Notes under the pieces: model-generated
Told to the model about the DNA's origin: nothing
The model's input: the letters and a program-made list of their open reading frames with translations, nothing else
Database searches by the model: none
Position numbers and translations under genes: made by a program
Part shown: in pieces, positions 9,691-62,330 of the stretch
How the letters are laid out: each line of letters starts with the position of its first letter
Numbering within the stretch: position 1 is the first letter of the stretch
DNA from: Rhynchosporium graminicola
Lineage: Eukaryota > Ascomycota > Leotiomycetes > Helotiales > Ploettnerulaceae
Assembly: GCA_900074885.1 (NCBI GenBank)
Contig: FJUW01000012.1
Span: 124,001-188,000, forward strand
Reading direction: 5' to 3'
DNA length: 64,000 nucleotides

Positions 9691-11300
9691 TCACAACGTC
9701 CCAAACACCGCTGCGAAAAGCATAACGAGGCCTGCCAACGTAACAGCATTCCCAATTTCTATTCTTCCGGCGGCACCCTTCTTGCTCAACCCGAATGGTA
9801 AACCCTGATAACTAAATGTCAATGTCTGCTTAACTGTTGAGTTAACACACTGCCCGTTCATGATATCCAAGCCCTTCAAATCATCTGGAACATTAAAGAA
9901 CATATACGTGCTGTTGTCCAGACCCTTGAATCCAGATGTGTCGTACGGAAACTTATCGCTAGGATCAGTGGATGAGGTATTGCGCAGGAAGATGCATTGA
10001 ACCTGTCCTGGGTAGTCTTTTGCGAGCTGGGGATAGTCTTTCATAACATCTGAGTTTGAAGTGTCGGCTACAAGAATGAACTTCCGGTTTGGGTAGGTCA
10101 TGAAGATGCGGTCGAGGAGGTATTTTCTGATCGAGAGCGTGGCGGAGACATCACTGAAGTTGAGGGGGCGGGTGTCGAAGGATCCACCTGGATAGGTCTT
10201 GTAGATGAAATCCATGTAGTTCCTCGTGACTTGTTCGGGTGTAGTTGTCAGGTAGTGGAAGTGGAAATCCGGGATGCTTCGACTCCAGTTTGCATAAACT
10301 TCGGGCATGTTCATCCAGGGGACGAAAGCGCGGGCGAAGGAGTTAAGAAGACCTTCGGCGGGCTGGTAGATCTTCGTGACACGAAGAATATCGTCGATAT
10401 CTGAAATGATGGTCAGGCCAACAGTGGGGACAAGGTAGGAAGTTGCATTTCCAGTGTTGGTTCCTGTAGCATAGACATTTAATCTTTGGATGTTTGTTGT
10501 AGCATTTCCAGGTTTCAGAAAGCCGCCTGGACCTGAAACGTTTGCGATTGGCAGGAACTGGTCATAATCTCCCTGAGCGGTCGTTTGTCCAACAAGTGTG
10601 ATGTTCTGAGAGCCTCCGCCTGGGGTAACAGCATTGCTTCCACCATTTGTGCCATCTACACCCTGACTCGACGCAGGCTCAATGTTGAAAGAGACATTTC
10701 GGTCGCCTTGTTGGACGACGAAGATCTCAGCTGTCAAGTTTCGGGCTTGAGTCTGCTGGTCGGGTGGTAAATCTTTGATTTTTGTGCCGATGAGGAAGAC
10801 GTCTGCTAGGTCGTTGAGTTTTGATTCGGAGATGTTGGGCTGCTTGAAAACATTTCCGCGGAATCTCAGATTCCAACCTTGCTGTGTCCAATTGGCGTAG
10901 GATCTAGGTAACCTGTTAGCATTACTGGCGCGCTTGCAAGATGCATATTTAATACTCACGGAATGTTTAAAACTTGTGTTGGAGCAGCAGCCAAATCTCC
11001 ATCACTTATGCCTAGGCTGCTCTGTACTGCCGATCCCGTGGGGAAATCCTGGAAGAAGTTGGGCACACCAGACGCAACGTAAGAAGGAAACGAGCCTAGA
11101 AGACTCTCTACATAACCTCCAGCCCCTTTAATCGAGTCGAGAAGATCGCGCTCTTGGACTCTGGTAGGGGTCTTATCGGTCAATGATGCACGCGGTGTGA
11201 TCATAGGATGTGGTTCGGCGACAGGATCTGGAGCTGGGGCTGGAGCTGCGAGCGCAAGTGGAAGCACGAGAAGTGCGATTTGAGTGAGCGAGGTCAACAT
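9691..11300 (-). CDS. Secreted App1/DUF2183-type phosphatase, probable GPI anchor
   Basis: This protein belongs to the family named for the phosphatidate phosphatase App1 catalytic domain. Two exons are placed at 11300-10960 and 10903-9691, giving 517 residues. The start at 11300 (MLTSLTQIALLVLPLALAAP) gives a clear signal peptide; the longer upstream frame is leader. The HAD-type catalytic motif is SDIDDILRVTK, where Ile replaces the Thr of a classical DxDxT, a change I believe is usual in the secreted fungal subgroup. FILVADTSNSDVMKDYPQL and FLRNTSS follow. At least ten NxS/T sites fit an extracellular location. The C-terminus is a hydrophobic tail (EIGNAVTLAGLVMLFAAVF) after a small-residue stretch, typical of a GPI signal. 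The 56-bp intron has two in-frame acceptor candidates. Confidence 0.85.
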
Positions 11301-26092: not shown

Positions 26093-28140
26093 ATGGATTC
26101 TACTGCCGCCCGGTCCACAACCGTCCATCCTCGACTTAATTTGTCAGCGCGACAAGAGGAGCTACTGTTCGCGGCTTTAAACTCCAACAACAAGACCACC
26201 AAACTAGAAACTACCAGTTTTCAGTCACCGGACCAACTCGCAATGGCTCCTGTTGCTCTTACCGAATCTCCTCTTCAAGCTCCCGGCTCTGGTACTGTTG
26301 GCTCTGAAGAGAGTCCTTTCATCGATTACGACTATGAGTTTGAAGGGGACGGAAGCTTTGACTATGGTGACTTCAACAACGAGTCGCAAGTCCAGATGAT
26401 TGGCAACCTGCCTGGTAGCTCTTCAGATGGTGATAACGAAAACAATGACAAGCGTAGCCATCCTGAAGTCGATGGCGAAGAAGAGGACGGTGGTGGAAAA
26501 CGAAGAGAGGGCGATGACAAGACCGCGAAGAAACCAGGACGAAAGCCCTTGACCTCCGAACCTACTTCGGTGAGTGTCCTATGTTGGCTATCGTCTCCTA
26601 CGCTGTTACTGATTTCCGAAACAGAAGCGCAAGGCGCAAAATCGTGCCGCCCAACGAGCCTTCCGGGAACGCAAGGAAAAGCATCTGAAGGACCTGGAGA
26701 CCAAGGTTGAGGATCTAGAAAAAGCATCGGAGTCGGCCAATCACGAAAATAGTATTCTGCGTGCTCAGATAGAGAAGATGTCGATGGAGCTGCGAGAGTA
26801 TCGCAAGAGGGTCTCGTCCAGTGGAGCTCCCGGTCGCAATACTGCTCCTAACAACGGCCTGCCGACATATTCCAATGGATTTGGCAATGGAGGACTCAAT
26901 AACCCAAACGACGTCAATTTTCAATTCGAATTTCCGAGGTTTGGTCGTCTTCCTGGACCCCCGGCTGCTTCTATCCTCAATGCTACCAGGAGCTCCACCG
27001 CACCGTCTGTTGCAAGTAAGCAGGATCTAAGCCCTGTGGACCAGGGACACATTAGTCCTCGCAATCAGTCTTCACAATATCCTGTCAGCAACGGCTCAAC
27101 TGCTGGCTTGGCACACACATCTGCGCAGTATGATGGTGGAGATATGTCAGCCCTATCAGGCCTGTTTAGCCCTTCACTACTCGAAAGCGTCGGAAAGACC
27201 CCCCCATTTGAGTATTTTGCGAATAACAACAACAACAACAACGGCTCCAATGGATCGAGATCTAGCACAGATTCTGCTAACGGCCACATGAGTACCGGTC
27301 ACAATACTTCGTACAGCTCTCCTTCAGCGTCGTCAAATTCAAACCAGGGACCAAGTTCGTCTTGCGGTACCTCTCCAGAGCCTACTATGCAGTCTCCAAT
27401 TTACAATAAATCTTTGGACAGCACACTGACCACAATTGGCGAAGAGCACTCTGCAGCAGATACCACTGGCGAAGGTGAGCACACCTTCTGCGACAAGCTC
27501 AACATGGCTTGTGGCAACCCAAATAACCCTGTTCCGCAAACACTGTCTGAGACGGGTGCGAATTCAGGAAACTTTGGAACTCCCGCTTTCGATATCAATG
27601 GGATCGATTGGTTCGCCCAACAGAATAATAACCAGTTCGACCCACAGCTCTTCGGTGATTACAGAGAGCCTCAAGATAACATTCTATCGAGTGAGACTTA
27701 TGGCGATACCTTTTTCAGTGATGCCTTCGCCTTGGATTTCACCAGTCCGTTCAACATGGCGCCAAGTCCTGCTCCACCCAAAAAGGATCTGGTTGCTCAG
27801 ATTGATGAGAAGCAGAATGAGGAGGACGAAGTCGTTCCAGGAGAGGATACCACACAGATGCTAAGCTGTAACACAATCTGGTATGTATCATTTTAGATGT
27901 TGACTCGATTATTCAGCGGCTACTCAACTTCTACTTCTTGAACATTTTGCTAATATAAACTCCAGGGATCGCTTGCAAGCCTGCCCTAAGGTCAAGGACG
28001 GTGAATTTGACCTTGATCTTCTCTGCAAAGACCTGCAGAAGAAGGCGAAGTGCTCAGAGACCGGCGCTGTAGTCAACGAATCCGACTTCAACAAGATTAT
28101 GAAGTCGTACGCCGCCCAGCAGGCGGCGAAATCTACCTGA
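26093..28140 (+). CDS. YAP1: AP-1-like bZIP transcription factor (Yap1/Pap1 type)
   Basis: Yap1-type factors switch on oxidative-stress genes; disulfides between two cysteine-rich domains mask a nuclear export signal. Three exons at 26093-26569, 26625-27880 and 27966-28140 give 635 residues. The basic region KRKAQNRAAQRAFRERKEKH starts at the exon 1/2 junction (residue 160) and leads into the zipper LKDLETKVEDLEKASE. The n-CRD is TFCDKLNMACGNPNNPVP (about residues 446-463). The c-CRD has Cys at about 574 (SCNTIW), 584 (ACPK), 598 (LCKDL) and 607 (KCSETG). The middle is Asn/Ser-rich with an N7 run. Intron 2 (85 bp) cuts the c-CRD after its first Cys; reading through it stops within five residues. 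Length and layout match Pezizomycotina orthologues. Confidence 0.95.
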
Positions 28141-29234
28141 GCTTAGATGTCATTCTTGACTCGGCCCACTTGACACCAACAACAAGAAGCAGGGAGTATG
28201 GACAAGCACTTTAAGGAACATGGAGGCGTTGAACTAAGGTGCAAAAGGCCGTCTTCACGATGAGAGCCATGGACTATGTTATGGACTGGAATGGTATGGA
28301 ATGGTCACAACTGGCGTTGGGGCATGCAGGCCTCTTTATGGATCACTTTTTGGTTGACAAAACTTTTTTTTTGCTTGACGTGAAATAGGACACAATGGGA
28401 TGGGGATGAAACTTGACTTATTGGAGTTATTGGAATGATGAGATGTGGCTTCCAGCTACAGTACCAGCTTGCATAGTGTTTCTTTCACAATTTTACGAGT
28501 ACAAATCAATCAACGAAGTGTAAGAAACTTCGCCGTCTTCATTTGGGGCTCATACGTGAAACAAACAGATCGTTCTCTGGCTCATACACGACCATGACAG
28601 CAAATGTATAGTCTGTACACGTTTCCCTCACTATTCGCTGCGAGCTGTAGCATTCACTTGCGAGGCCATCGAGACATCTGGTGTCGGTATGAACAACATT
28701 GAAATCGAACACTGGTATTATGTTACTATAAACGAGCTTGGCACATATTTCATGTTATGTTGCTGTAATTCTCTTGGACAACTTCCATGTATCTTCAAAG
28801 GATGGCAAATTCTGGTGGAGCAAACAACGATCCTGTCAAACGTTTTCTGGCAATGATGCCGTGAAATTCAGATGGCGACCCAAGAATCGAAGTTACACTC
28901 CTATCCAACATATAATTCAGTTTAATAGGCTCCAGAATGTCAGAGTAAAACAAGCATGCAGTCGTGGAGAAAAGAGATATTCAAAGGTCATAAGTACTCC
29001 ACGTGATTACGCGTTGTAATATCTCGCGTCTCGCGATCCTAGCTCTTTCAATAACAACCTCGAAATTCACGTCCGCGGCTGTCTGCAGACTTTTGACTCC
29101 ACCACCAAGATAACTCCTTACCTCATTCTCCTACAAAGAGGCGGAGCAAGCCTCGCTCTGTATGTAAGTGTGATAAATCACATCTCGAGCAGGCGCATGG
29201 AGTAATAATTACAGAATCCTCGGGACATGGCAGG
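28141..29234. other. Intergenic, YAP1 3' flank and upstream of the repeat protein
   Basis: This 1.1-kb spacer carries the YAP1 3' UTR and the next gene's promoter. It has a GGAATGGTAT-type near-repeat (28288-28304) and a T9 tract at about 28365. I see no ORF worth calling. Confidence 0.5.
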
Positions 29235-32200
29235 ATGATGACAGGCCAACGAACCTTCGAGCTCATCCCCACCTCGCTGGTGAAATCCAATGGCCAACGA
29301 CGGCCCATGACCAGCAAAGCCGCGAAGAAGGCATACCAACAAGCGAACCGCGGACCCAAGGTTTCCAGAGCTGAGCAGCGCAGGCGCGATAATGCAGAAT
29401 TGGAGCAGCAGAAGAGGGAATACGAGAAGGAACGCGCTGCGGCAAGAGCAAAGGCTGCAAGAGAAAAGAAGGCGGCTAAAGCGAATGCTGAGAAAGATGC
29501 GAGGAGGAAACAGGGCCTGCCGGAACCCAGTCGGTTTGTGAGACCGAGTCAGTCTACGATATCGAGGTTTATGAGGAGTGAAGGGGGGAATAAGAGGACG
29601 TGGCAGCAGATGGAGAGTTTGGCGGAGGATTCGGATCGGACGATTTCGGATGCGGAACAGGGTTATGAGGGACCATCTGCAAAGAGGCAATTGATAGATG
29701 AAGGTTCTGATGACGAGTTTGGAGACTTTCCAGCGTTTTCACAGTTGGATGTCCTTGAGCAGATCGCCAGCTCTGAGTTATCGGTCAAGGAGAGCCCTGC
29801 TCCAGGATTACCTACGAAGAGTCGCTTGTCTTCGCAGAAATGTCGTAATGGAGCATCGCAGGAGCTCCCAAAAATGGAGAAAGCCGACGAGGATTCAATA
29901 TTGAATACCCAGGCTCTCGATGATCTGGTAACGACCCAGCTTTTGTCAGATCTGGTAGAAGCGGTCACTAAATCAGACTCTCTTGAGCCACCTGATAGAT
30001 CTCTTACAAAATCACAGCGAAACACAGTACAAGTACCGTCGATATCCCAACCGTCCCCAAGACGCTCTGGAAGAGTTGCCGAGAAATTCGGTAAAGCACA
30101 TCAATCTTCAAGTCCTTTCAGACGATCAACAGTGCCTGTTGTTGAGATTCCGGCAAAGTCAGCTGAAACTATGCGAGCACTTAACGAGGCAGTAAGCAGT
30201 CCCAGGAGTGACGGTCCAACCACGCCAGCAGTATTACAGACACGCTCTACTAACATGCCGCCGCCATGCCTCCCACCGAAAGTGACAATGGCTACGAAGC
30301 CCACATCTACGCCGCAAAAGCCGCACTTCCCACTACAGGCTGCTCGAAACCTTCCTACCAAACCAGTATCAAATCTACCCCCATCTTCCACACAAGCATT
30401 CCTCGAGAGCCACATGGATGACTTCTTTCCGAGCCCAACCCAAGCAGTACGAGATCTCCTCGATGATTTAGATGATATTCCCTCCAACACGCAAGTTGCC
30501 CGAGAGCTCAATCCAGAAAACCCAGGTAAAGGTCATCTTGAGACTATGTTCAGTACACAAGATTTCATCTTGTCTCCAGAAGACTTGGTGGACATCATTT
30601 CACCACGTCGTTCGCCTTCAAAGCCTCTCCGAGAAGCTACTTCTGAGTCTTTGAACCGAAGGGAACGTCCACATGGTTATGGGAGCCTATCGCCCAAGGA
30701 GATCAAGAAGGTCGAACTTGAAGACTTTATCAGTACGCAAGATCTGGTTCTGTCACCGGTAGATTTGGAGGAGATCATTTCGTCACGTCGTACGCCACAA
30801 AATCCCCTTCAAGTAGCGAATCCGGGGGTCCTCAGCAGCAGGAACAATATGGATGGTAGAAAGTCTACACCCGAGAAGACGAAAATCGACGATCACGAGT
30901 TTATGAATTCGCAAGAACTAGCATTCTCACCAGTGGACCTGGAGAAAATCATTTCATCACGCCTTACGCCCCTAAAGCCTCTCCCAGAAGCTAATCCAGT
31001 GTCTCTAAATCAAGGGGAAAATGCAGATAGTGGCTTGAAAACTAGCTCAGAGAAGACAAGGAACGACTCTGACTTCTTCATGAGTACGCAAGGACTGGCC
31101 TTTTCACCGGGTGACCCGGAGGAGGTCATATTACCACGACGTACACCCCCAAAGCCCTTCAATGAAGCTGCTGCCAAGGCTCTTAACGAGCAGGAGTACT
31201 CGCATGTTGCAAGACAGCGTACTGCGCAGGATCCGAAAAACGATACGAATGACTTGATAAGTTCTCAAAAGCTGGTACTTACACCAGTAGACCTAGAGAA
31301 GATCGTTTCACCACGTCGTACATGCCCGAAGCCGCTTCAGGAAGTTACTTTGGAATTTCTGAATCACGGCAAACATGCGTCTAGTGCTAAGAAGCCTTTT
31401 CCTGAGAGGCCCGAAAACGAGCTAGACGAATTTGTGAGCACACAAGATCTCATCCTATCTCCGGAGGACTTAAATGAGATACACTCGTCACCGTATCGCC
31501 CAGCATTACCCTCTCCTCCCAAAGGAAAACCGTCTTTTTCAAATCACCAAAGGCACAAACCGTCTCAAGCTCGAGCCAACTCTAAGCGTCGTTTCTTCGA
31601 GGAGAAAGATGAAGATCTTTACTACGCTGCTATTCACGAGAGTAAGGCTGCAGGAGGTCAAGCTGTACCTATAAAGCCTCCACCCAATAACTTCTTGTCA
31701 GCTATTCGGAACCGATCCGATTCCACAGACTATGGTGATTTCGATTCCGACTTACCAGGTCTGTTTGAGGACAAGGAAGATGAGGAGTTGGAAGCTGCTA
31801 TCCGAGAGAGTAAAATCACCGCCGAGTTGGAAGCGAAGAGACTGGCTGCTTTGACAGCCGAGACGGAACAACTAGAACTGGAAAGAGTATTGTCGAATTC
31901 AACTGATTATGCAGATTTCGACCTCCTCGGCCTCTCCGAAGAGCACAATCAAAATACGCACAGCACCAAACCAACGAACAAGACGAGGGCGGAAAATTTA
32001 GGAGATGTAGCAGTAATGGGGAAGGATAACGGCGGTAAAGCTAAGCCGCGACGTTTCTTCGAAGAGAAATATGAAGATCAAATGCATGCCGCTATCTACG
32101 AGAGTAGAACAATGGAGGCGACAAAAATCAGCATCATGGGCAAGGAAGTGGTGAGCCCGAATAGATTCTTCAAGGAGAAATATGAGGATCAGGTTCATGC

Positions 32201-32471
32201 TGCTGTGTGTGAGAGTGAGAGGCTGGCGATGAGGGATGGAGTTGGGAAGGACGAGGAGAAGAGGAATGCGAAGGAGCAGGAAAAGGAGAAGGAGAAGAGG
32301 AAGGCGATGGAAACTGGCAAGGGAAATGTGAAAGATAACGGGAAGGAGGAGAAGAAGGACACGGGCCCGGGGAAGGAGAAGAGGAAGATGAAGAGGATCT
32401 TGTCTGCGGCGACGGATTACGGCGATGATGATTTCATGGACTGTGAGCTGGAACTTGTGGGGCTGTGTTGA
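29235..32471 (+). CDS. Unknown 1,078-residue protein with TQ/SP repeats and UIM-like motifs
   Basis: This is a single uninterrupted ORF starting MMTGQRTFELIP. Residues 25-110 are a basic, Ala/Lys-rich coiled coil. A short motif SRFVRPSQSTISRFM follows. Six tandem repeats of 58-60 residues start at about 440, 500, 559, 617, 677 and 735, each opening with S(T/S)QxLxxSPxDLEEI and then RRTPxKPL and LN; a related STQAFLESHMDDFFPSPTQ sits at 385. The C-terminal third has four FFEEKxEDxxxAAIxES units (about 785, 848, 940 and 977) that resemble ubiquitin-interacting motifs, best in EDEELEAAIRESK. An STDYGDFDxxLxGL acidic motif occurs three times, once at the very C-terminus. TQ and SP are consensus sites for PIKK and proline-directed kinases. 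A DNA-damage or ubiquitin adaptor role is inference only; I do not recognise the protein. Confidence 0.8.
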   Translation: MMTGQRTFELIPTSLVKSNGQRRPMTSKAAKKAYQQANRGPKVSRAEQRRRDNAELEQQKREYEKERAAARAKAAREKKAAKANAEKDARRKQGLPEPSRFVRPSQSTISRFMRSEGGNKRTWQQMESLAEDSDRTISDAEQGYEGPSAKRQLIDEGSDDEFGDFPAFSQLDVLEQIASSELSVKESPAPGLPTKSRLSSQKCRNGASQELPKMEKADEDSILNTQALDDLVTTQLLSDLVEAVTKSDSLEPPDRSLTKSQRNTVQVPSISQPSPRRSGRVAEKFGKAHQSSSPFRRSTVPVVEIPAKSAETMRALNEAVSSPRSDGPTTPAVLQTRSTNMPPPCLPPKVTMATKPTSTPQKPHFPLQAARNLPTKPVSNLPPSSTQAFLESHMDDFFPSPTQAVRDLLDDLDDIPSNTQVARELNPENPGKGHLETMFSTQDFILSPEDLVDIISPRRSPSKPLREATSESLNRRERPHGYGSLSPKEIKKVELEDFISTQDLVLSPVDLEEIISSRRTPQNPLQVANPGVLSSRNNMDGRKSTPEKTKIDDHEFMNSQELAFSPVDLEKIISSRLTPLKPLPEANPVSLNQGENADSGLKTSSEKTRNDSDFFMSTQGLAFSPGDPEEVILPRRTPPKPFNEAAAKALNEQEYSHVARQRTAQDPKNDTNDLISSQKLVLTPVDLEKIVSPRRTCPKPLQEVTLEFLNHGKHASSAKKPFPERPENELDEFVSTQDLILSPEDLNEIHSSPYRPALPSPPKGKPSFSNHQRHKPSQARANSKRRFFEEKDEDLYYAAIHESKAAGGQAVPIKPPPNNFLSAIRNRSDSTDYGDFDSDLPGLFEDKEDEELEAAIRESKITAELEAKRLAALTAETEQLELERVLSNSTDYADFDLLGLSEEHNQNTHSTKPTNKTRAENLGDVAVMGKDNGGKAKPRRFFEEKYEDQMHAAIYESRTMEATKISIMGKEVVSPNRFFKEKYEDQVHAAVCESERLAMRDGVGKDEEKRNAKEQEKEKEKRKAMETGKGNVKDNGKEEKKDTGPGKEKRKMKRILSAATDYGDDDFMDCELELVGLC

Positions 32472-33024: not shown

Positions 33025-36000
33025 TTAGCCTCGGACAGCAGCCAATAAAGCGGGGTGTCCTTGAATTAGCGATGCGTTCTTCTCAGCAATGAACTTGACG
33101 GTAGCGATAACTTTGGCACGGGTCTCATCCTCGAGTTGCTCGGCTGGCTCGCCGAGGACGGCTTCGAATACTGGGACGAGCTTTGGGGTGAGAGAGATGA
33201 CGTCTGCATTCTGGTGTTGGTCTGTAATGATGAATTAGCATATGAAAGAAAGTTTTGTTCGGACTGGAGTAACTTACACAGTCCAGCAATGCAGGTGAAG
33301 ATGGGCTCGTTCTCTTCGTAGTCCTCCTTCAACGGCAGGAGGTCAACGAGAACTGGTAGAATGTCGCCAATGGGGACCTTGTCTGGATGGGCCATGATCA
33401 TGCGAGTGACACATCCACAAGCGTTATCCAGAGTTCGGGCACGCTGGGTTTGGAGAAGCGGCTCAAGTTTGCCCAAGATGCTGTTGTAGCTTGGGAGGTA
33501 GGCGGCCGAATCTGTGGAGTGGAAGATTAACAATCCAAGAGCGTATGCGGCGTTTGACTTGGTCTCTGGGTCCTCATCTGTCAACTTGTGGATGAGAAGC
33601 TTGAGAAGAGGTGCGGTGAAAGGAGTGACACCAGCACCCATATGTCTGGTGCATTCAGCGATGACACCGACGGCTGTTGAGCGCTCGTAATTGGTCGAAG
33701 AAGAGGCGAACTTAGTGATCGGCTTTTGGTAGACCTTGAAGAGCTCGCCAAATTGAGTGCCGAGTGCCTTGGCCATGCCGATTATCACGTCGAGAGCGGT
33801 GTCAATAACAAGCCAGTCGTACTCTGAGGACTCCTCTTCATCCAGATCATCATGGTCATCTTCGTCACCCATGTCATTTTGGCAAGGATGCGACTTGGTG
33901 AGAATGGCGGCAACAGTAGAGGTCATGAGCTCAGTGAATTTGTCTTGGGTCATGATTGCTGGACCACAAAGCTTCAAAGATGCGGATACGTTACGGTTGA
34001 TGTCGGTAACGACAGCCCTATTGAATCAAGTTGTCAGTATATGAAACACATGAAAATATTGCAACAGAACTTTTTGGTAGTTTGATCAGAATATAGATAC
34101 GTGTTCGCAGCATCCGCAAATTATGCGTCTGAGTGAGCTGGGTATAACGTCATGTGCCTCATAATTTCAGTGAAACTTTGAAGGGGTGGTACTTGCATAG
34201 AGAGAACGGACTTACCGGTCGACCTCATCTTCCCAGACAGACATTGTAGCAGCAGTCACAACTTCTCCAAGCTTCAGTAGCTCTTCGGAAGGCTGCGACT
34301 TGAGAGGAAGACCTGGAGTCCACTTCTCGCCAGTGTGGTCCTCCATCAAGGCCCAAAGGCATGCGTATGCACGCCACAGAGTGCCAATAGCAGCCTTTCG
34401 TACTCCCTCGTAGGAGTGCTCTACCAAGACGACGATAGTCTCGATTGCCTTCTCAAAGTATGGCATAAAGTTCTTTCGAGTATTCGACAGAACATCACCC
34501 AAAACCTCAATGGCAACCTCTTTCTCCAAAGCAACAGCAGTGACAGCTGTAAGATCATCCCAGTCCTCATCCTCATCATCGTCATCTTCCATGTTGTCGA
34601 GATCATCGATCTCAACCTTGCTGGTAGCTGGAGTAACAAGCTTGACCTTCTTTCCAGCGATAACAACTTCGTCTCCGAGAATCTCTCTTGCCTCTTCACC
34701 AATTTCGAAGTCAAGATCAGACTCCTCCTGGTTGAGAGAAGCCATCAAAGCACCAACTACGCCTTCAAGGAATGGTGTAAACTCCTCCTTGTAGACCTTT
34801 GCCAAAGTGCTCCAGAGAATGTAGCTTGTTTCTCTCAATCTTGCGTGGCCAAGGTTCAGGCCTTCTTCGCTGGCTTGCATCAGAGGCTGGACATACTTCT
34901 GGAAAGCAACTGGGCCGACAGCCTCTGCCATGCTTCCCATAGAATCAGTGACGATGCCTCGTAAATCAAGCTCCTCGGTACTGTCCTTGATGGTAACATA
35001 TTTAGACATCGCCTCCATAGTACCCTCGAAGTAAGGCAGGAAAGCATCCATGGCGGAGCCAGCAATGGATCCAATTGCACCAGCAGCACTTGCTTTGACA
35101 TTAAGATCCTCGTGGTTGAGCAGTTGGACAAGACGGGGAACAAGTTCTGGGACATATTTTGCGACGGTTTCCTTATCCACGCCATCCGTGACAGAGTCCA
35201 GGGCGCTGCAAGCGCCCTTCAGAGTTTCGAGATTCTTCTCATTTTCTGCTTCGCTAGATGCCTGAACAGTCGCAGCGTCAAGATTCTTGAGCAAAGCTGG
35301 AATGAGCTCAGCATGATGCTTGCAAAGCTCCTCGGCAAGGTCATCGGCCAATCTGGCGACACCATTGAGGGCGGCACCTCTGACACCCATGACTGGGTCG
35401 TTGAGAAGCTTTAGGACTATTGGCATCAGGCCGTCCAGTTGAGTCGCAATGAAATCTGGAGCTCCTTCAACACACATACCCAGAGACAGGATACCGGCTT
35501 GGCGATATTTCGGGTTGTCACTGTTGACATATTGAGGCAAGGCTTTTAGGAGTGGCACAATGACCTGGCGAGGAGGGAGACTGGTTGCGAGCAGGTCCAA
35601 GAGACCAAGCGCCGTCTTGTGCGGAGTCACATCATCTTCGTCCTCATCATCATCAATCTCAGTAGCAATTTGCATGGCCTTGAGTGTCAAATTCTCTCCC
35701 ATATCCCTGATACCTTGGATCTTCATCTTTCTGTATCTTGCGCACTGCATCAAGAAAGACAGAGCCTGTGTTCGGGACTCGTCTTGGATATCTGTATCGG
35801 CACCCAAATCGATCATGAAAATCAAGAGATCCTTGAAGTGCTTGTTCAACAACGCAGATTCGCATCCTAGAAGTGTCTGGAAGACTTCGAAAGACTGCAT
35901 GACGCGGTCATCATTTTCCTCATCAATTGCAGCTTTTAATACAGCGACCATGGCAGGGAACATCTCTTGGAAACGTGCAAGGTTTTCTGGGTCCTCATCA

Positions 36001-36637
36001 GGCTGGATCAACATAGCAACTCTGCTAAGACAGAGTAATGTGTTGACGCGAACATCTGGGCTCTCGGGGTCTTTTATTGTGTTGGACAATAGGGAGAATA
36101 GACCAGGCAGTTTATCCTCGAAGACATCCCCAGCAGTCTCAAGCAAAGAGAAGAGTGTATAGATTCCAACCTCGCGATGAGCAACTTTATCAGATGTAGA
36201 GGCCTGGAATAAACTTTGAGGAAGCGAGGCCCATTGCCCATCTTCCAAATCAATAGCGGCGATGGAAGCGATGACACGCGCAGCGGAATGTCGAACAAGT
36301 GGCTTGGTCTCATTGAGAGTGGTTTCGAAAAGTCTTTCGCGGATGGCTGGCTTCTGATCCTCGGGTAAGGCCACCCAGTGCTTTGAGATCAGACGAAGTG
36401 CCTCTACAGCGGCTTGTTGGCGGACTTCAGGAGCATCGTGGGAGGTGAGAATGTGAAGGAGCCATAGAAGAGACTGGGGGTTTGGGTAGTAGGTCTTTCG
36501 GAGTTCGGTCGTCGAGGCCTTGACGATTTCAGTATCAGCTAGAAATAATTAGCAGGTTGTTGATGGCGGGGTCAAATGGGGGCCAAGTTACGGGTTTGGA
36601 TGCCCTTCAAGAGCTCGAGAAATTTATTTTGATCCAT
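33025..36637 (-). CDS. KAP123: Karyopherin beta-4 importin (Kap123 type)
   Basis: Kap123 carries ribosomal proteins and histones H3/H4 into the nucleus. Four exons at 36637-36592, 36538-34216, 34017-33278 and 33221-33025 give 1,101 residues, the expected size. The N-terminus MDQNKFLELLKGIQTPDTEIVKAS is split by intron 1. HEAT repeats fill the rest, for example KYRQAGILSLGMCVEGAPDF, GVRGAALNGVARLADDLAEE and NVKASAAGAIGSIAGSAM. Two acidic insertions are typical of the family: EIDDDEDEDDVTPHK and NMEDDDDEDEDWDDLTAVTA. The C-terminus ends ASLIQGHPALLAAVRG. The introns are 53, 198 and 56 bp; intron 2 is unusually long, but its flanking sequence DEVDR/AVVTDINRNV joins cleanly. The Ran-binding N-terminal importin domain is partly visible but was not scored. 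Confidence 0.94.
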
Positions 36638-44410: not shown

Positions 44411-45275
44411 GTCAGGTTGTTGGTGGGGCGTGACGAATATTGAGAATATGGACTGTATATAAATTGTAAGGAGTCCCTGATGTTGTTTAGCACAAGCAAG
44501 CAGCACAAGAATACAAAAACATTGTAAAACCGATCATGAACGGGTTCCCTGTGGATTGCCATGCAAAAATGTAGACTGTCTTCGTCCCGGTCTTTTAGTT
44601 ACATTTGATTACCATTGTCAAGCTTATGAGCTGGCCCAACGTAGGAATTCGAAATGCAGCACATCTTTGTTCAATTGAGGCTGGGCAAACTTCGACGAAG
44701 TCATCCAACACTTGAGTCACTTCCAAAGAAATACTTTGGGTAATGTCCTGTGATGATTTTGTGACATTAGCATTGAGTTGCGATCTGGAAATGCGATGGC
44801 CCGTTCGTTGCCCATTTCCCGAAGACGGTTGGATTTGCCTCGCCTCGACTAAGTGAAGATGATCCCGATTTCTAAGTCATCGTCCTGATTGGTAGCCTTT
44901 CAGTGAGGGATTAATAAGGAATACTAATTTACAGTTTGAGGGCAGCTTAGTGTGCGCATACTTCTAATGAATCACACGACGTATTCCCGAGGCAATTCTG
45001 CGATTGGATACGGTATGAACACCGTACCCTAGGTACTTGTAGTTATAGTGATTGATAGAGATGAGATCTACGAAGATTGCCAACACAGGAATGCCGAGCC
45101 AGCCAGCCAGCGCATCCGAGCCACGGACCTGACTAGCTTCCTTTTTGCCCAACCATAACTTGCGGGCTCCCACGACACGCCGTCCAGTTACACAACCAGA
45201 CAGCAATTACAGCCCTGCTTTGCATGCTTTGCAGAAAGAATCAAGGCAGGAAAAGGTAAGCAAAGGAAGCACAGA
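44411..45275. other. Intergenic, PCK1 3' flank and TCO89 promoter
   Basis: This 865-bp spacer lies between two tandem plus-strand genes. I see no gene; a CCAGCCAGCCAG triplication sits at 45100-45112. Confidence 0.55.
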
Positions 45276-46847
45276 ATGCCATCCGAGACGTACGCCTCCC
45301 AATCGCAAACGCGACCCTCAATCGGCCAGCATCGGTCAACGAATTCCATCCACAGTGAACAGACCAACTCGCTCTCAACCACACCACCGCAATATGGCAA
45401 GCCCAAGAAACACGGGCACGTAGTTGGAGGAGGAGGACGAGGCCATGCCAGAGTACCATCGAGTAAAGCTCTGCATAAGCTCACCAAAGCTGCACATGCG
45501 AATGATGCTGGTGGGTCGCACACGGATCTGAAGAAGCTGGCGAGGAATACTTCGTCAAAGGATCTGAAGAAGAACTCATCACATGTTAGTCTGAAGCGTA
45601 ATCGCTCGGCTGCAGACGTGCAAAAGCGGACAAAGGCAGCTCAGGAACAGGAGGATAAGAGACGGAGTGTTAATTTCGAGATTGGGGATACAGAAGACGC
45701 TTGGGAGAACGACTCCTCCGCCTCGCCAGCTTTGTCGAGATCCGCTTCGAGACCTGCAAGTGGGAATTCATCTTCGAAACCTAGCGCTCCAAATTCACAG
45801 TCACATTCACCACCACAATCACCTTCGAGTACTGCTAGATCGAATGCTGCTACAAATGGTTCAGAGGAGAAACAAACTTCGCGACAAACGGCAGATGCAA
45901 AGGTCATCACGGAACGACTTCTCCAGCGTACACAGTCACACAACACAACCAAGATGTCTCTAGCTACAGCCACACCATCAGCATACGTCCCCGACTCTCC
46001 AGAGAAGAGTCAGAACGGCACACCGACTGTAGGAAGTGGTGGTAATGAAGTAGTTTCCCGCTTCGTAGGCGGATCCTGTACGCCGAGCGAAAACTCACCA
46101 TTTCTCAACAATCATAAGAATGACGGGAGAAGCAAACAAACCAGCGAAGACATGAAGAGAGCGCAATCAATGGGCAACTTAGCGCGGCCAGATCAAGAGA
46201 GAGACGACGATGAAGAGAGTGTTTTAGCACCCCGATCTAGGAAATCTTCTACAGGGCATGCGTACGTACCGCCGCAGCAATCGCGCACGCAGCAGAAACT
46301 CTGGCTGCAGAGAGCGAGCTCGAACATCGAACCCCAGCAGATGGCGCCGGGCGTGGCTATGAACGGTCTCGCTGGTCTACATGGCAATCTCGGGGGTACA
46401 TCGCTCGTTGGAGCAGCTGGCTATGACGGAAGGGATCCTCGCATCAAACTCCAACTCGAAAGAACAGGTCTCGAATACCTAGTCGTACGTCGCCATCAAG
46501 ACCCCATCGGCCAAGCTATAAAACGCCTCAGTCTCCTTCCGGGCGCGGAGAAGAACCGTAGGATCCCAGCGCATAAAGCGAAGAGTGTGAATGGTGAACA
46601 GAGTATGAATGCGGGCCATTATGGACTGAGTCAGAGTCTGAAGGAGTCGAGGAGTCGAGCTAAGAAAGGCAGTAACAAGCAGAATGCCGGGTCGAGTGCG
46701 AATGGTGCAAATTCCAGCTATGAGGGTCACTCGGGCAGTCTGGATGAAGGGGATATGAGCGATAGGGGTGGGGATAATAATGATACTGGAGCGCTGCTTA
46801 GGAGTATGTGGGATAAGAGCTATGATTACAGCGCGAGCGCTGATTAA
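45276..46847 (+). CDS. TCO89: TORC1 subunit TCO89-domain protein
   Basis: This 523-residue single-exon protein matches, from memory, the Pezizomycotina TCO89-domain family, a non-essential TORC1 component on the vacuole/lysosome surface. The N-terminus is basic and Ser-rich (SSKALHKLTKAAHAND, LKKLARNTSSKDLKK, SLKRNRSAADVQKRTK). It is followed by the family's acidic core SVNFEIGDTEDAWENDSS and SPALSRSASRPAS. After a long disordered, Ser/Thr-rich centre come QQKLWLQRASSNIEPQQ and a conserved C-terminal block, GRDPRIKLQLERTGLEYLVV then RRHQDPIGQAIKRLSLLPGA. The C-terminus is low-complexity. Many S/T-P sites suggest phosphorylation. The call rests on these blocks, and a short spliced upstream exon cannot be excluded. 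Confidence 0.75.
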   Translation: MPSETYASQSQTRPSIGQHRSTNSIHSEQTNSLSTTPPQYGKPKKHGHVVGGGGRGHARVPSSKALHKLTKAAHANDAGGSHTDLKKLARNTSSKDLKKNSSHVSLKRNRSAADVQKRTKAAQEQEDKRRSVNFEIGDTEDAWENDSSASPALSRSASRPASGNSSSKPSAPNSQSHSPPQSPSSTARSNAATNGSEEKQTSRQTADAKVITERLLQRTQSHNTTKMSLATATPSAYVPDSPEKSQNGTPTVGSGGNEVVSRFVGGSCTPSENSPFLNNHKNDGRSKQTSEDMKRAQSMGNLARPDQERDDDEESVLAPRSRKSSTGHAYVPPQQSRTQQKLWLQRASSNIEPQQMAPGVAMNGLAGLHGNLGGTSLVGAAGYDGRDPRIKLQLERTGLEYLVVRRHQDPIGQAIKRLSLLPGAEKNRRIPAHKAKSVNGEQSMNAGHYGLSQSLKESRSRAKKGSNKQNAGSSANGANSSYEGHSGSLDEGDMSDRGGDNNDTGALLRSMWDKSYDYSASAD

Positions 46848-53804: not shown

Positions 53805-54811
53805 CTATACTTCCTCCATGGGCCCTGCCGGCTCATCGTCCTCATCATCCCCAAAACTGCCAACTGATGACATATCGTCATCGTCGTCCGTCTCGGCTCC
53901 TGCTTCGTCTGCGGCTTCCTTACTGGCGTATTTCGCTACATATTCTGTGAGGCATCAGCTATGTCCAGACCCTTGTTACTAATTATCACCCACCCTTAAC
54001 CTTAGCATCATAACTCTTCGGTTCCCGCATCAGCAATGCCGCCGCTTCTCCATTCAAAGGGTCCGTAGGGTTCGGGTATCGCAGGAGTTGTGGAAGGAAG
54101 ACCTCGAAGATATTGATCATGTCGAACATGGGAGACCAGGTCTGGTTGATTACGTCGAGGCATACGGAACCGGACCTAGGTCTTCGTCAGGATATATGCA
54201 TTTGGTTTGGACAGGTTCGTACAACTCGTCAATATTTGGGTGGAAAATCCGGTTCACGAAACCGATACTGGGCGACTTGTAGGGGTATTGATCGGGTAGC
54301 TCGACGTGAACTTTCCATAAGCCGCCTTGGAATGGTGCTTCACTTTGTTAGACTTTCTCGGTGCTTGTATCTGCCATGGAACCTACTCTCTTCGGGTCCC
54401 TTGAACCGGACGTAAAATTCCTGCCTATTTTCCAACCTATCAATACCTTGTAGACCGATCCCAAGGAATTAAAAGAGGGCATACACTGGTGAGGCATTAG
54501 CTTTAAGTGACGAGCCCGCAGAGTCGCAAGACTTACTGTTATCATTGACCAGGGTAACCTCATAGTCGCTCATCAACCTAAAAATGTCAGCCACCACCCA
54601 GACCTGAATTTGCAAAGTTCAACAGAGCATCGCATACATCCTATAAGATACCAAGTTAGCAGTGTCACTCCGGCGAAGCAATGCGACAATCCGACTTACT
54701 TCATGACCTATAAACCACAAGCAACAGTCAGCCACTACCATTATTCTGTATGACTTCTCAGCTTTGTCTTTCACTCACATCCGTCTCAATACGTCTTCGC
54801 GGAGAAGACAT
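53805..54811 (-). CDS. UBC8: Ubiquitin-conjugating enzyme E2 H (Ubc8 type) with micro-exons
   Basis: Yeast Ubc8 acts in glucose-triggered degradation of fructose-1,6-bisphosphatase as E2 of the GID ligase. The product is 185 residues. Exons: 54811-54779, 54707-54700 (8 nt), 54577-54537, 54485 (1 nt), 54424-54387, 54337-54223, 54175-53994 and 53944-53805. The sequence runs [20 protein letters not shown], then [20 protein letters not shown]. The active-site Cys is in [15 protein letters not shown], and the HPN motif is IFHPNIDEL. The C-terminal tail is acidic ([19 protein letters not shown]), as in Ubc8. The 1-nt exon supplies the middle base of the Met codon in NDNMQEF: A from exon 3, T at 54485 and G from exon 5. 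The flanking introns are 51 and 60 bp with GTAAGT/CCAG and GTATGC/ATAG ends. Confidence 0.93.
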
Positions 54812-55860: not shown

Positions 55861-56909
55861 ATGTCAACACCACATTCCCTCATAAAGGGAGCTCGTGCTC
55901 TCGTTTCGCTGTCTTCCCGACCGGCTTCATCTGCGGCTCGGCCTTTTGTTGTGAATTTTCAGGAAAGATACAGTTCACATTCACCTATGGGATCTTCAAG
56001 TCCAAGTCAGAGAAAGAAAGTTACTTTAAATACACTTCGTTCCTTATATAAGAAAGGAGAACCGATTACTGTTCTTACGGCCCATGACTTTCCCAGTGGT
56101 CATGTTGCCGACGCTGCCGGAATGGAAATTATACTTGTGGGAGACAGTCTTGCAATGGTAGCCCTTGGGATGGAAGATACCAGCGAGATCCTGGTGGAGG
56201 AAATGTTACTTCATTGTCGCTCAGTAGCTCGAGCCGCAACATCTGCCTTTACTGTATGTTAGCACGTGCCCCCACCAAGTCTCAACTAATCTCCTTTCTT
56301 CAGGTTGGCGATCTTCCCATGGGATCTTATGAAATATCCCCCGAGCAGGCTTTAGAGACCGCCATCAAATTCGTCAAAACGGGCCGTATGCAAGGTGTCA
56401 AGCTGGAGGGAGGCCTGGAAATGGCTCCAACTATCAGGAAAATTACAGCCGCTGGAATTCCAGTCCTCGGCCACATTGGGCTAACACCTCAACGCCAAAA
56501 CGCCCTCGGCGGTTTCCGCGTGCAAGGCAAAACCTCCGCTGGTGCATCAAAAATCCTCGAAGACGCCTTAGCCATCCAAGAAGCTGGTTGTTTTGCAACG
56601 GTAGTTGAAGCTGTTCCCTCAGAAGTCGCGGCTTTGATTACAAAGAAACTATCCATTCCAACCATTGGTATCGGTGCCGGAAACGGCTGCTCTGGCCAAG
56701 TGCTGGTCCAGGTAGATATGACCGGCAATTTCCCACCAGGTCGATTTCTCCCGAAGTTTGTCAAGAAGTATGGTGATGTTTGGGGCGAAAGCTTGAAAGC
56801 TATTGAGTCGTATAGAGATGAGACGAAGAGCCGTTCTTATCCTTCGCCAGAACACACGTATCCGATTTCGAAGGAGGAGCTTGCGAAATTCGAGCGTATC
56901 CTGGATTAA
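55861..56909 (+). CDS. panB: Ketopantoate hydroxymethyltransferase (3-methyl-2-oxobutanoate hydroxymethyltransferase)
   Basis: This enzyme adds a hydroxymethyl group from methylene-THF to alpha-ketoisovalerate, the first committed step of pantothenate and CoA synthesis (ECM31 in yeast). Two exons at 55861-56253 and 56304-56909 give 332 residues. The start at 55861 (MSTPHSLIKGARALVSLSSR) gives an amphipathic, Arg/Ser-rich N-terminus suitable for mitochondrial import. Family blocks are KKGEPITVLTAHDFPSGHVAD, ILVGDSLAMVALGMEDT with a Mg-binding Asp, VGDLPMGSYEISPEQAL, VKLEGGLEMAPTI, PVLGHIGLTPQ, and IPTIGIGAGNGCSGQVLVQVD. In bacterial enzymes the corresponding metal-site stretch is usually GDSLGMVALG, so the Ala is a mild difference. 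The 50-bp intron contains a stop if retained. It converges on ATG12. Confidence 0.95.
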
Positions 56910-58022: not shown

Positions 58023-59609
58023 TCAATCCCGCAATGCCTCAATATCGACGACTTCTTTAACGGCTTCGGTTGTCAGAATGAGTGGTGAGTCTTCTTGAAC
58101 ACAGACACTATCCTCTATCCTGATTCCCATGCCTCTGAAATGTGCTGGCCATCTTTCATCATCTGGCACATAAATTCCGGGCTCTATAGTAACACAGTGA
58201 CCCGCTTTCAGCTGTGTGGCGCGAGAGTATCCAGGGCAATCATGTACATCCAGCCCAACATAGTGTCCAACGTGATGAGGAAACAAAATATCCATAGCAT
58301 CCCCACTCACATCGAAGCCCAAAGACTTAAGTCCTTCTTTCAGTCCTTGTTCTGTTATCTGATGCAGTTTATCCAGGGTCGTATTTGCACTATCTCTACA
58401 CAGCGATACGCTGCTCCTCTGCACACGCAATATGGCCTCATAAAGGTCCTTTTGAGGATCTGAGAACTTTCCATTGACGGGCCAGGATCTTGTGATATCT
58501 GTAATGTAACCACCGTACTCTCCACCGGCGTCCACTAGGACAGTTTGCCCATCTTTCAGGACGTCGTTATTTCGAACATAATGAATGCTTAGAGCGTTAC
58601 TACCTCCGGCAATAACCGGTATGTATGCTGTCGTATCACATCCACAAAACTTGAAATCGTAGTCAAGAAAAGCCGCTAGATCCTTTTCTCTGGTCCATTG
58701 CCGGCGCATGGCATTGGTGAATGCTCTTCCGGAGTACTTTCCAGCCAAGCGCATATTCGCTATCTCCCCTTCGCTCTTGACGATCCTCAGTTCATGTATC
58801 AATGGCTTCAGTGGCTTGACCTTGCTGTCTTTGATCATCTTCTGAAAGTCGTTCGGTGGCGCATCTTGATTCCGGAAGAAATGTCCGAATCCAGAGCACT
58901 TTGCTATATCTGTATAGACTTCACTTGCGGCTGAAATCAGTGGTGGGAGCAAGGTATGCAATTGGTTGATATCACCTGACTACTTTCATCAGCACTTGCT
59001 CAGAAGTCTCAAAAGCGAAACCAACCTCATCCGCATTAAATACATCTAACGCCGCTTGTTCGCCAGATCTTGCGCCTTCCCATTGTTCTGCCTTGGTATC
59101 TTTTGGACGAAGGAAAAGATGGAAGGTATAGTCTGAAGATGACCCCGCTCTCTGTATCACAGCCACTGCTTCTGGCTCATTGAAACCGGTCAAGTATAGA
59201 AAGTTTGGTTCCTGATGGAATTCGTAGAACACGGCGCCTGAGCGGTACTTTGTATTGGAAGAGGCCAAAATCGCTACGCCATTGGGAGGCAAACTTGCAG
59301 CAAGCTTCGCTCGTCGGTTTGCATACTCCTGGGCGGTAATACCGGGAGTTACTGAATAAGGTCAGGAACTAGCATCGTCCATATCTGATGCGTAAACCTA
59401 CTTTCTCCCGCCCTCAAGAGATGGGGATGTGTCTCATGAACAGGCTGACCAAACTGGAGTTCCGCTGCGGATACTGATGCGTATGTTCTTCGTGTATATG
59501 ATGTGGTGCGACTTCTATGTGCAGATGCAAGAACTTGGAACCGACATCTGGGACGCGTGGGTTGGAATGCTTTGTGCAGCTGTTGTAAGACAGGTCTGCT
59601 GAACTTCAT
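58023..59609 (-). CDS. ICP55: ICP55-type mitochondrial X-Pro aminopeptidase
   Basis: Icp55 removes one residue from imported mitochondrial proteins after MPP cleavage and so stabilises them. Three exons at 59609-59402, 59351-59026 and 58979-58023 give 496 residues. The N-terminus (MKFSRPVLQQLHKAFQPTRP) is a strong mitochondrial presequence. The creatinase N-domain shows PPNGVAILASSNTKYRSGAV and EPNFLYLTGFNEPEAV. In the metallopeptidase domain the five Mn ligands are visible: two Asp in VDAGGEYGGYITDITRSWP, His in FPHHVGHYVGLDVHD, Glu in TIEPGIYVPDD and Glu in GIRIEDSV. Intron 2 is only 46 bp, with a GTTGGT donor and a CTGAT branch site. Length agrees with yeast Icp55. A cytosolic AMPP paralogue is a less likely alternative given the presequence. 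Confidence 0.92.
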
Positions 59610-60132: not shown

Positions 60133-62330
60133 ATGGCAGCAGTATCTATATCGCCTTTACCACACACTCTATCTACCATGTCGAGCAAGAGGGCACCCTT
60201 GTCCAGCAATCCCAATGCTATCAATTCACCCTATCGAGCAGCGGCAGCTACTGCGAGCAAACAGAAACGATCCTATGCCACAGTACAGCGCGAAGAAGCC
60301 TATGGCCAACCACCTCCGGCAAAGAAGCAGATGCTCGAAAACTACCAGACCATTAGAACACCACCTCGTCAACAATTAAACCAAAACTCGGTGGAAGGAC
60401 GTGTGTTTACTCGAAAGTCCAATGCCTCTCAGCAATCCGCGTTCGAACGGAAACTGGTTGCCGCTCGGGAGAAGCCCCAACAGACTGTCACAAAGGCAGA
60501 GAAGACCACAGAAGAGAATCAGGACTCGATACGGCAATGGCAGAAGCATTACCGGAAGATCTTTCCTACCTTTGTCTTCTACTTTGAAAGTATCTCGGAG
60601 GAAGTTCGTATCAAGTATACAAAGCAAGTAGTTGCACTTGGAGCAGTAAGTCCTTGACTACGTCGAACTTCGTCGCACTTTACCGGAAGCATTGACTTAT
60701 CGTAATCGTAGCGCGAGGAGAAATTTTTCTCTAATGCCGTCACTCACGTTGTCACGACACGGTCTATTCCTCCGATCCAGCCAAGCAAATCAGCAGAAAC
60801 CCCCGTCACTTCCTCGACAAACGACTCTCAGGAAAGTCAACCTCAAACAATAAACCCTACTCTCCTAGAACGGTCATCAGAATCAGCAAACACACATTCG
60901 GACTTAGGAGGAAGGACAAAATTCGCATTCGAGGCACCCATCAACAGAAGGCCAGCACCACAAGGTCAGGATGGGGAAGTCAGGACACATCAAGGTCGCA
61001 ATGCAGATGTTCTGTACAGGGCCCGGGAACTGGGCATGAAGATATGGGCTTTGGAGAAACTATCACGAATGTTGGGTGCTATGTTCAATGAGGAAATCGG
61101 ACAAGCAAATCACGGACACAACACCAGGAGTAACTCGGTTTCGACGACACTTCCTAGAACTGCACGCGAAGCAGATCTCTCGCAATTATTGCGCAATGAA
61201 AGGATCAATGGACCATCGGACAGAGATCCTACGGTAGCTGCCAAGGAGCTCACGCTATTCAAAGGCCCGTTCATCTATATTCATGATATTGACGAGAAGC
61301 AACGCCCGATAATGGTTCGAGAATATGCAAAGGTAGCTCACAAAGAGGATGGTGATTGGCCCCAATTTCGGAGTGTGGCAAATGGCAAATGTCCCTTCGT
61401 CGAGGAGATCGATTACACTCAACGGGAAGCCGAGAAGGAGAAGGAGGCAATTCGTCTGCAAAGGCAACAGGAAAAAGAGAAGGCTATTGTCCCACGAACG
61501 CGTGCGGCAACTGTACAAGCTGCCAGAATGCAGCCACCAAGAATTACTGGTAAAAGGTCCTTGGCTGAAATGGAAAGCGCCTCCAACCGAAACATTGTCA
61601 CCGTCTCTACGAAGCAGACGAATCCATTTACTTCAAACAACAACTCGTTTCCAACTTTATCGGAACGTGAGGCCTCCTCTCGGAGTAATCAGAACGCTTT
61701 CGTCAGCCGTGCTGGTGTTGGCCGACTGTGTGGCGGAGAACCTGTTGCATCAGGACTGCAGCAGTCAAACATCACATCTGCGATCAGATCCACCATGATT
61801 TCCTCCACAGCAGCTCAACCAGGGGCCAAAGCTGGAACCAGTAAGGAGGTCCACGGCTTGCAGAGAAAGGTGCTCGAGAAGAATAGCGGCGGCCCTGGCT
61901 CTTACGGCTTGACGAGTTCTCATCGTATGACCGATATTGTTGGTGCTGTTCGGGAGGAATCAGCAGCTCGACCATCCCGATTGCGGGCACAAGACAAACT
62001 CTCACTGATCGAAGAAGATGTGGATCCATCCGAAGTCGAGGACAATGCAAGAAAGGTTGAAGCTACTCGAAAAGCAAAGGCGGTTCAACAGAGGAGGCTA
62101 GAGAAGCGTGATCCGAAGCCTGGATATTGTGAGAACTGTCAGGACAAGTTCGAGGATTTCGATGAGGTAAGATTTGTCGATGACTTCTTCGCAATGAGAT
62201 CAAATACTTATATTTACCCTAGCACGTCTTGTCTCGCAAACATCGAAAGTTCGCCGAGAAGCTTGAGAATTGGGCAGATCTCGATGCTCTTCTGAATAGA
62301 TTAGCCCGGCCCCTTCGCGCTGACTACTGA
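60133..62330 (+). CDS. DBF4: DBF4/nimO-type regulatory subunit of Cdc7 kinase
   Basis: Dbf4 activates Cdc7 to phosphorylate MCM helicase and fire origins. Exons 60133-60645, 60712-62166 and 62223-62330 give 691 residues from the first ATG; an ATG at 60178 (MSSKRAPLSS) is an alternative. The N motif, part of a BRCT-like fold, is IRQWQKHYRKIFPTFVFYFE through KYTKQVVALGAREEKFFSNA and VTHVVTTRSI. The M motif is ELTLFKGPFIYIHDIDEKQR followed by PIMVREY and DGDWPQFR. The C motif is a CCHH zinc finger with CENCQDKFEDFDEH and HVLSRKHRKFAEKL. Intron 2 (56 bp) splits the finger exactly between the Cys pair and the His pair. The long centre is disordered and Ser/Arg-rich. All three Dbf4 motifs are intact. 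Confidence 0.94.

Follow-up and report, generated by a model that had tools for sequence, protein, structure and literature searches.

The T at position 54485, read on the minus strand, is very probably a genuine one-nucleotide exon of a UBC8 gene. The best account of the data is that this T is an exon between two ordinary short introns, which would be removed successively, and that the arrangement is probably ancestral in Pezizomycotina. The window, the whole stretch of 64,000 nt analyzed here, is part of a 55.3-Mb assembly of 121 contigs. The UBC8 gene occupies 54811 to 53805 on the minus strand, and its product is a ubiquitin-conjugating enzyme of the Ubc8/UBE2H type. The gene model has nine exons (33, 8, 3, 41, 1, 38, 115, 182, and 140 nt) separated by eight introns, each between 47 and 71 nt long, and it encodes an uninterrupted protein of 186 residues. 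The features of the model are as follows.

54779..54811, minus strand: exon 1, 33 nt, with the start codon
54700..54707, minus strand: exon 2, an 8-nt microexon, GTCATGAA
54638..54640, minus strand: exon 3, the 3-nt microexon GAT, giving MKMLM instead of MKLM
54537..54577, minus strand: exon 4, 41 nt, terminating in AAC A
54486..54536, minus strand: intron 4, 51 nt, GTAAGT ... GCTAAT ... CCAG
54485..54485, minus strand: exon 5, the putative one-nucleotide exon T; A+T+G gives the Met of NDNMQEF
54425..54484, minus strand: intron 5, 60 nt, GTATGC ... ATAG, with a weaker branch motif (TTGAT)
54387..54424, minus strand: exon 6, 38 nt, starting G CAG GAA
54223..54337, minus strand: exon 7, 115 nt
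53994..54175, minus strand: exon 8, 182 nt
53805..53944, minus strand: exon 9, 140 nt, with the stop codon
54577-54387, minus strand: predicted mRNA junction of exon 4, T, and exon 6, AACATGCAGG

For the protein assignment, the Pfam score, the structure matches, and the first protein search were obtained with a 185-aa version lacking one Leu at the exon 7/8 junction. This version contains a UBC domain (PF00179, 138.3 bits), and its nearest solved structures are of the Ubc8/UBE2H type, the best matches being the E2-24 kDa chain of 8pmq, which we take to be yeast Ubc8, and the E2 H chain of 8pjn. At the site matching NDNMQEF, the 8pmq chain reads NDSMQEF and the 8pjn chain has Leu in place of Met; thus, members of the wider family do not all have the Met of the motif. 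The matches listed include high-identity homologues from Drepanopeziza (95%), Mollisiaceae (90%), and Cadophora (97% over 85% of the query), all of which belong to Helotiales, as does the related Diplocarpon, whose lineage was looked up; the host is accordingly a probable leotiomycete.

Other frames of the window were matched to Pfam families: an APP1 phosphatase (9694-11001, minus strand), a PAP1-type bZIP factor (26613-27893, plus), an importin-beta-like protein (34215-36548, minus), a ketopantoate hydroxymethyltransferase (56088-56906, plus), an M24 peptidase (58026-58979, minus), and a DBF4-like kinase regulator (60712-62292, plus). Two plus-strand open frames, 29097-32468 (1124 codons) and 45159-46844 (562 codons), gave no Pfam match at E 0.001.

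Exon 4 ends in GATAACA, followed by GTAAGT, and exon 6 starts with GCAGGAA after AATAG. Within what would otherwise be a single intron, the T sits between AG and GT in CACCAG-T-GTATGC. Each of the two introns is complete, with a donor, a branch motif, an acceptor, and a viable length (51 and 60 nt). The branch motif of intron 4 is the consensus CTAAT, starting 15 nt before the intron end, and that of intron 5 is the weaker TTGAT, at 19 nt. The position of the T, the two intron lengths, and the donor and acceptor letters reported in an earlier note are thus borne out on the minus strand. The place of the T in that note, between a third and a fifth exon, has to be revised to exon 5 of nine since the N-terminal part contains the 8-nt and 3-nt exons.

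To list the possible products of 54577-54387, we enumerated one- and two-intron splices in which donors were GT or GC, acceptors were AG, and no intron was shorter than 40 nt. The enumeration resulted in 162 products; 131 had no stop, and 39 of those were in frame with exon 6. Only one of the 162, the product with the T exon, reads VNDNMQEFYV. The proposal that the T supplies the Met and restores the frame is therefore supported, as it is the sole enumerated GT/GC-AG route to the motif. Skipping the T, with exon 4 joined to exon 6, gives a frameshift and several stops; the expectation that a direct junction loses the frame was confirmed by both the enumeration and a model built without the T. 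The remaining eight exons join into an open frame. From these products, the T is predicted to be necessary in every functional UBC8 mRNA.

The AG-T-GT site with its branch motif is more than chance. We scored the pattern YAG-N-GTRNGY, requiring CTRAY upstream of it and 40 nt or more in each half. Random 112-mers from 264 kb of the genome, the locus included, carried it in 158 of 400,000 cases (114 with T as the single base), and dinucleotide shuffles of the 112-nt stretch in 46 of 100,000 (10 with T). Among 1113 GTRNGY-to-YAG stretches of 100-125 nt, again with the locus included, three had the pattern, all with T, and eight had it when CTRAY was not demanded. Ab initio statistics of intron length and signals from the 264 kb yielded 29 candidates each time, mixed with false joins, and were discarded.

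For the homologue survey, we combined the best 120 of 5659, 714, and 701 matches from three protein searches, which resulted in 203 distinct proteins. These were sorted by hand into 65 transcript-like records, 23 from fungi outside Pezizomycotina, 112 from Pezizomycotina, and three plant-named records (P0001, P0109, and P0148), which were set aside. Placement in Pezizomycotina followed the organism name, and eight lineages were looked up. The 65 transcript-like records are known solely from jgi, lgn, merc, or ena sources and carry no organism names. They appear to be mostly transcripts, judging by their unbroken frame and by the lengths of their contigs, mostly about 0.9 to 2 kb with a few up to 7.3 kb (merc records give none).

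Among the records listed, the motif NDNM[QS]EF or a near variant was intact in 65/65 transcript-like records, 23/23 records from other fungi, and 18/112 from Pezizomycotina. The transcript-like set comprised 58 NDNMQEF and seven with HDNMQEF, NDSMQEF, NDNMSEF, or NNNMSEF. The remaining 94 of the 112 annotated Pezizomycotina records were broken at the motif, 93 of them directly after NDN; the 94th, P0115, has nothing before QEF. The first search alone, run with an intact query, gave 61 broken records out of 73 listed Pezizomycotina, whereas the second and third used region queries that already had the M-Y reading described below and are consequently enriched for that class. The 18 intact records, which include four from Cladosporium, may reflect intron loss, correct annotation, or frame-patched models. 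Judging from these proteins, automatic annotation apparently misses the T exon in most of the records seen. Searching the genome contigs for relatives' DNA of the locus found no relative, and the viral contigs searched gave a single short E2-like match (L031, 23 residues); conservation beyond this genome is accordingly read from the wrongly annotated proteins.

The wrong residues themselves point to the hidden DNA. The residue after NDN has a codon starting with A (I, M, T, N, K, S, or R) in 93/93 broken records: 43 S, 19 M, 11 K, 8 R, 8 T, 2 I, and 2 N. The residue before QEF has a codon ending in G in all 75 records with an NDN...QEF stretch, a count that leaves out the 19 of the 94 broken records without such a stretch. 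In 35 of these 75 that residue is R, as predicted if AG/G is read through. With sense codons equally likely, the chance per record is 0.39 for the A-starting codon and 0.75 for the G-ending codon. The combined pattern implies that the upstream exon ends in phase 1, that the downstream exon supplies the last codon base, and that one base is missing.

Two classes of broken records match particular misreadings. In 15 records, the sequence is S-x-QEF, with x being K, M, T, E, G, or Q, which corresponds to a donor moved 4 nt from GTAAGT, GTATGT, GTACGT, GTGAGT, and the like; this kind of product was also enumerated here, and the class includes Tuber indicum of Pezizomycetes (P0182). In 14 records, the residue after M-Y is V, A, D, or G, and no record has M-Y with any other residue, as predicted for A/T-GTAYG when the T opens an exon and the donor is read through. 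The M-Y genera are Diplocarpon, Beauveria, Fusarium, Hortaea, Salinomyces, Aspergillus, Penicillium, and Sclerophora. They span Leotiomycetes, Sordariomycetes, Dothideomycetes, Eurotiomycetes, and Coniocybomycetes, with one species looked up per class and the remaining genera presumably belonging to the classes in which we placed them. M-F-V or M-S-V stands in four more records, readings that GTTYGT and GTCNGT could produce.

A simple GT-AG reading does not fit nine records with K-FYV, five with R-QEF, and P0004 (M-H-P). Neither NDN-K-FYV nor NDN-R-QEF occurs among the products printed in the enumeration of the window. The NDN-K-FYV form (P0054, P0061, P0075, P0077, P0080, P0096, P0098, P0116, and P0194), which is not derivable from a GT-AG choice, is perhaps a frame patch by annotation software.

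The same gene contains the 3-nt exon GAT. Enumeration of the N-terminal part resulted in 51 products; two stayed open and in frame, VMKMLM if GAT is included and VMKLM if it is skipped. The family length matches VMKMLM, that is, with GAT included; this length was found in 63/65 transcript-like and 22/23 outgroup fungal records, the other two and one being unmatched by the pattern, and in only 48/112 annotated Pezizomycotina records listed. The other Pezizomycotina were one codon short (42), otherwise broken (14), or unmatched (2). Moreover, in six of the 112, VMKMY precedes a G-codon residue, which equals readthrough of GAT/GTAYG. As far as the proteins indicate, the GAT exon is missed in many Pezizomycotina records.

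Regarding the order of splicing, introns 4 (GTAAGT...CCAG) and 5 (GTATGC...ATAG) are probably recognised by intron definition. As the acceptor and the donor are one base apart and could hardly be occupied at once, the introns would be removed in succession. Most likely intron 4 would go first, and the T would then be attached to exon 4. This would rebuild the donor ACAT/GTATGC, whose C and A at -3 and -2 should give it better pairing with U1 than the unspliced AGT/GTATGC has, and removal of intron 5 would then give AAC ATG CAG, or N-M-Q. The reverse order would leave CCAG/TGCAG, where a GCAG lying 5 nt downstream would compete as acceptor. We favour intron 4 before intron 5, with modest confidence, because of the better rebuilt donor and the competing acceptor left by the reverse order.

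Given the survey, we infer that the one-nucleotide exon is old and shared by many filamentous ascomycetes, and the arrangement is probably ancestral in Pezizomycotina. A further reading, which we consider doubtful, adds a single origin in the Pezizomycotina stem with retention since then. The conservation together with the 3-nt exon would then mark a splicing switch, in which skipping of the T would yield frameshifted mRNA for decay and lower the E2 of the GID/CTLH ligase, which we take Ubc8/UBE2H to be.

The earlier note had also raised the possibility that AG-T-GT acts as a recursive-splicing intermediate instead of an exon. As the likely stepwise way in which the exon is handled, recursive splicing stands: the introns would necessarily be sequential, and splicing out intron 4 recreates the intron 5 donor, so that as a mechanism it is compatible with the T exon. 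As an alternative to the exon, be it a recursive or a stwintron intermediate, it is quite unlikely, since one base would remain in the mRNA and would be an exon by definition. Zero-nucleotide ratchet points leave no base behind. In a [D1,2] stwintron, as the excerpted text of PMC12403724 defines it, the donor is interrupted after its first base. UBC8 differs from this: the last letter of exon 4 is A rather than G, and the T lies between the introns.

The possibility that another splice choice is the real one is smaller still. An open, in-frame product results both from the donor at +4 (NDNSKQEFYV) and from TGTAT as a 5-nt exon followed by a GC donor (NDNMYEFYV), S-x-QEF is stated by 15/112 Pezizomycotina records listed, and the +4 reading is that of Drepanopeziza. 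The Pfam scores of the T-exon protein and the +4 variant are barely apart (138.3 vs 135.9 bits). However, these choices need poor donors (GTCTTG and GCCCTC), and MQEF or MSEF immediately follows NDN or one of its variants in 65/65 transcript-like and 23/23 outgroup fungal records. Least credible of all is that the 112 nt form one intron and that an assembly error or a mutation removed a base at the boundary of exon 6. The frame would equally be restored by a T ahead of GCAG, and neighbouring E2 matches in the genome can lie about 110 nt apart (one such gap is on contig C56, where a single intron is not established). Proteins of many species, however, show the identical one-base deficit, so that an error confined to this assembly is very unlikely; the internal AG-T-GT, branch motif, and right base would be coincidence, and the other eight exons form an open frame.

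The T exon of UBC8 resembles the one-base exons of plant APC11 and VPS55, which, according to the excerpts of PMC4674806 and PMC8831610, are conserved over large land-plant clades and absent from reference annotations. In both cases, one base lies between AG and GT, is critical for the frame, is missed by annotation, and appears clade-wide, disappearing where introns have been lost. For APC11, the authors prefer intron definition, the introns being removed one after another, and they cite a potato gene with a 9-nt exon where the second of the two flanking introns is removed first (excerpts of PMC4674806). In the same excerpts, the APC11 base is an A in a stretch annotated as a 422-nt intron, whereas the fungal T lies in 112 nt; the APC11 and VPS55 exons were confirmed by RNA, and the UBC8 T is known here from sequence.

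The statement that no fungal case had been described is now outdated: the authors of an article on Fusarium CYP621A, published in 2026, present it as the first fungal gene with a one-nucleotide exon (PMC12940212). As in UBC8, this is a fungal nuclear gene with short introns, and the base is the middle of a codon in a conserved motif, PKG in CYP621A, which the excerpt gives as wrong in all listed transcript models but one. The CYP621A base is a G in a P450 gene with RNA reads, in contrast to a T read from the DNA of a core ubiquitin enzyme. The excerpt covers 20 orthologues from Fusarium and names used for Fusarium, whereas for UBC8 five classes are inferred. In the mitochondrial rnl gene of Ophiostoma, and of Ceratocystis as cited, a single base also separates two fungal introns (excerpts of PMC12308204); unlike in UBC8, these are group II introns of the self-splicing type in an rRNA gene, with no spliceosome and no reading frame. 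The [D1,2] stwintrons, so far as excerpted, share with UBC8 two adjacent ascomycete spliceosomal introns removed successively, but the inner intron splits the donor and no exonic base lies between (PMC12403724). Among the best matches in the open-licence literature, no title was found on a one-nucleotide exon in UBC8 or UBE2H.

One-nucleotide exons were therefore already known, and it is the depth of conservation that would be unusual for a fungal case. The survey indicates a correctable error in public UBC8 protein records, affecting 94/112 of the Pezizomycotina examined. If true, the UBC8 T would join the land-plant and Fusarium cases as an old and stably kept one-nucleotide exon, in a core gene shared by one of the largest fungal groups, and it would offer many easily grown species for studying the spliceosome at an acceptor and a donor one base apart. 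If the single-origin reading were also true, the depth of the exon in fungi would parallel that of the APC11 and VPS55 exons in land plants.
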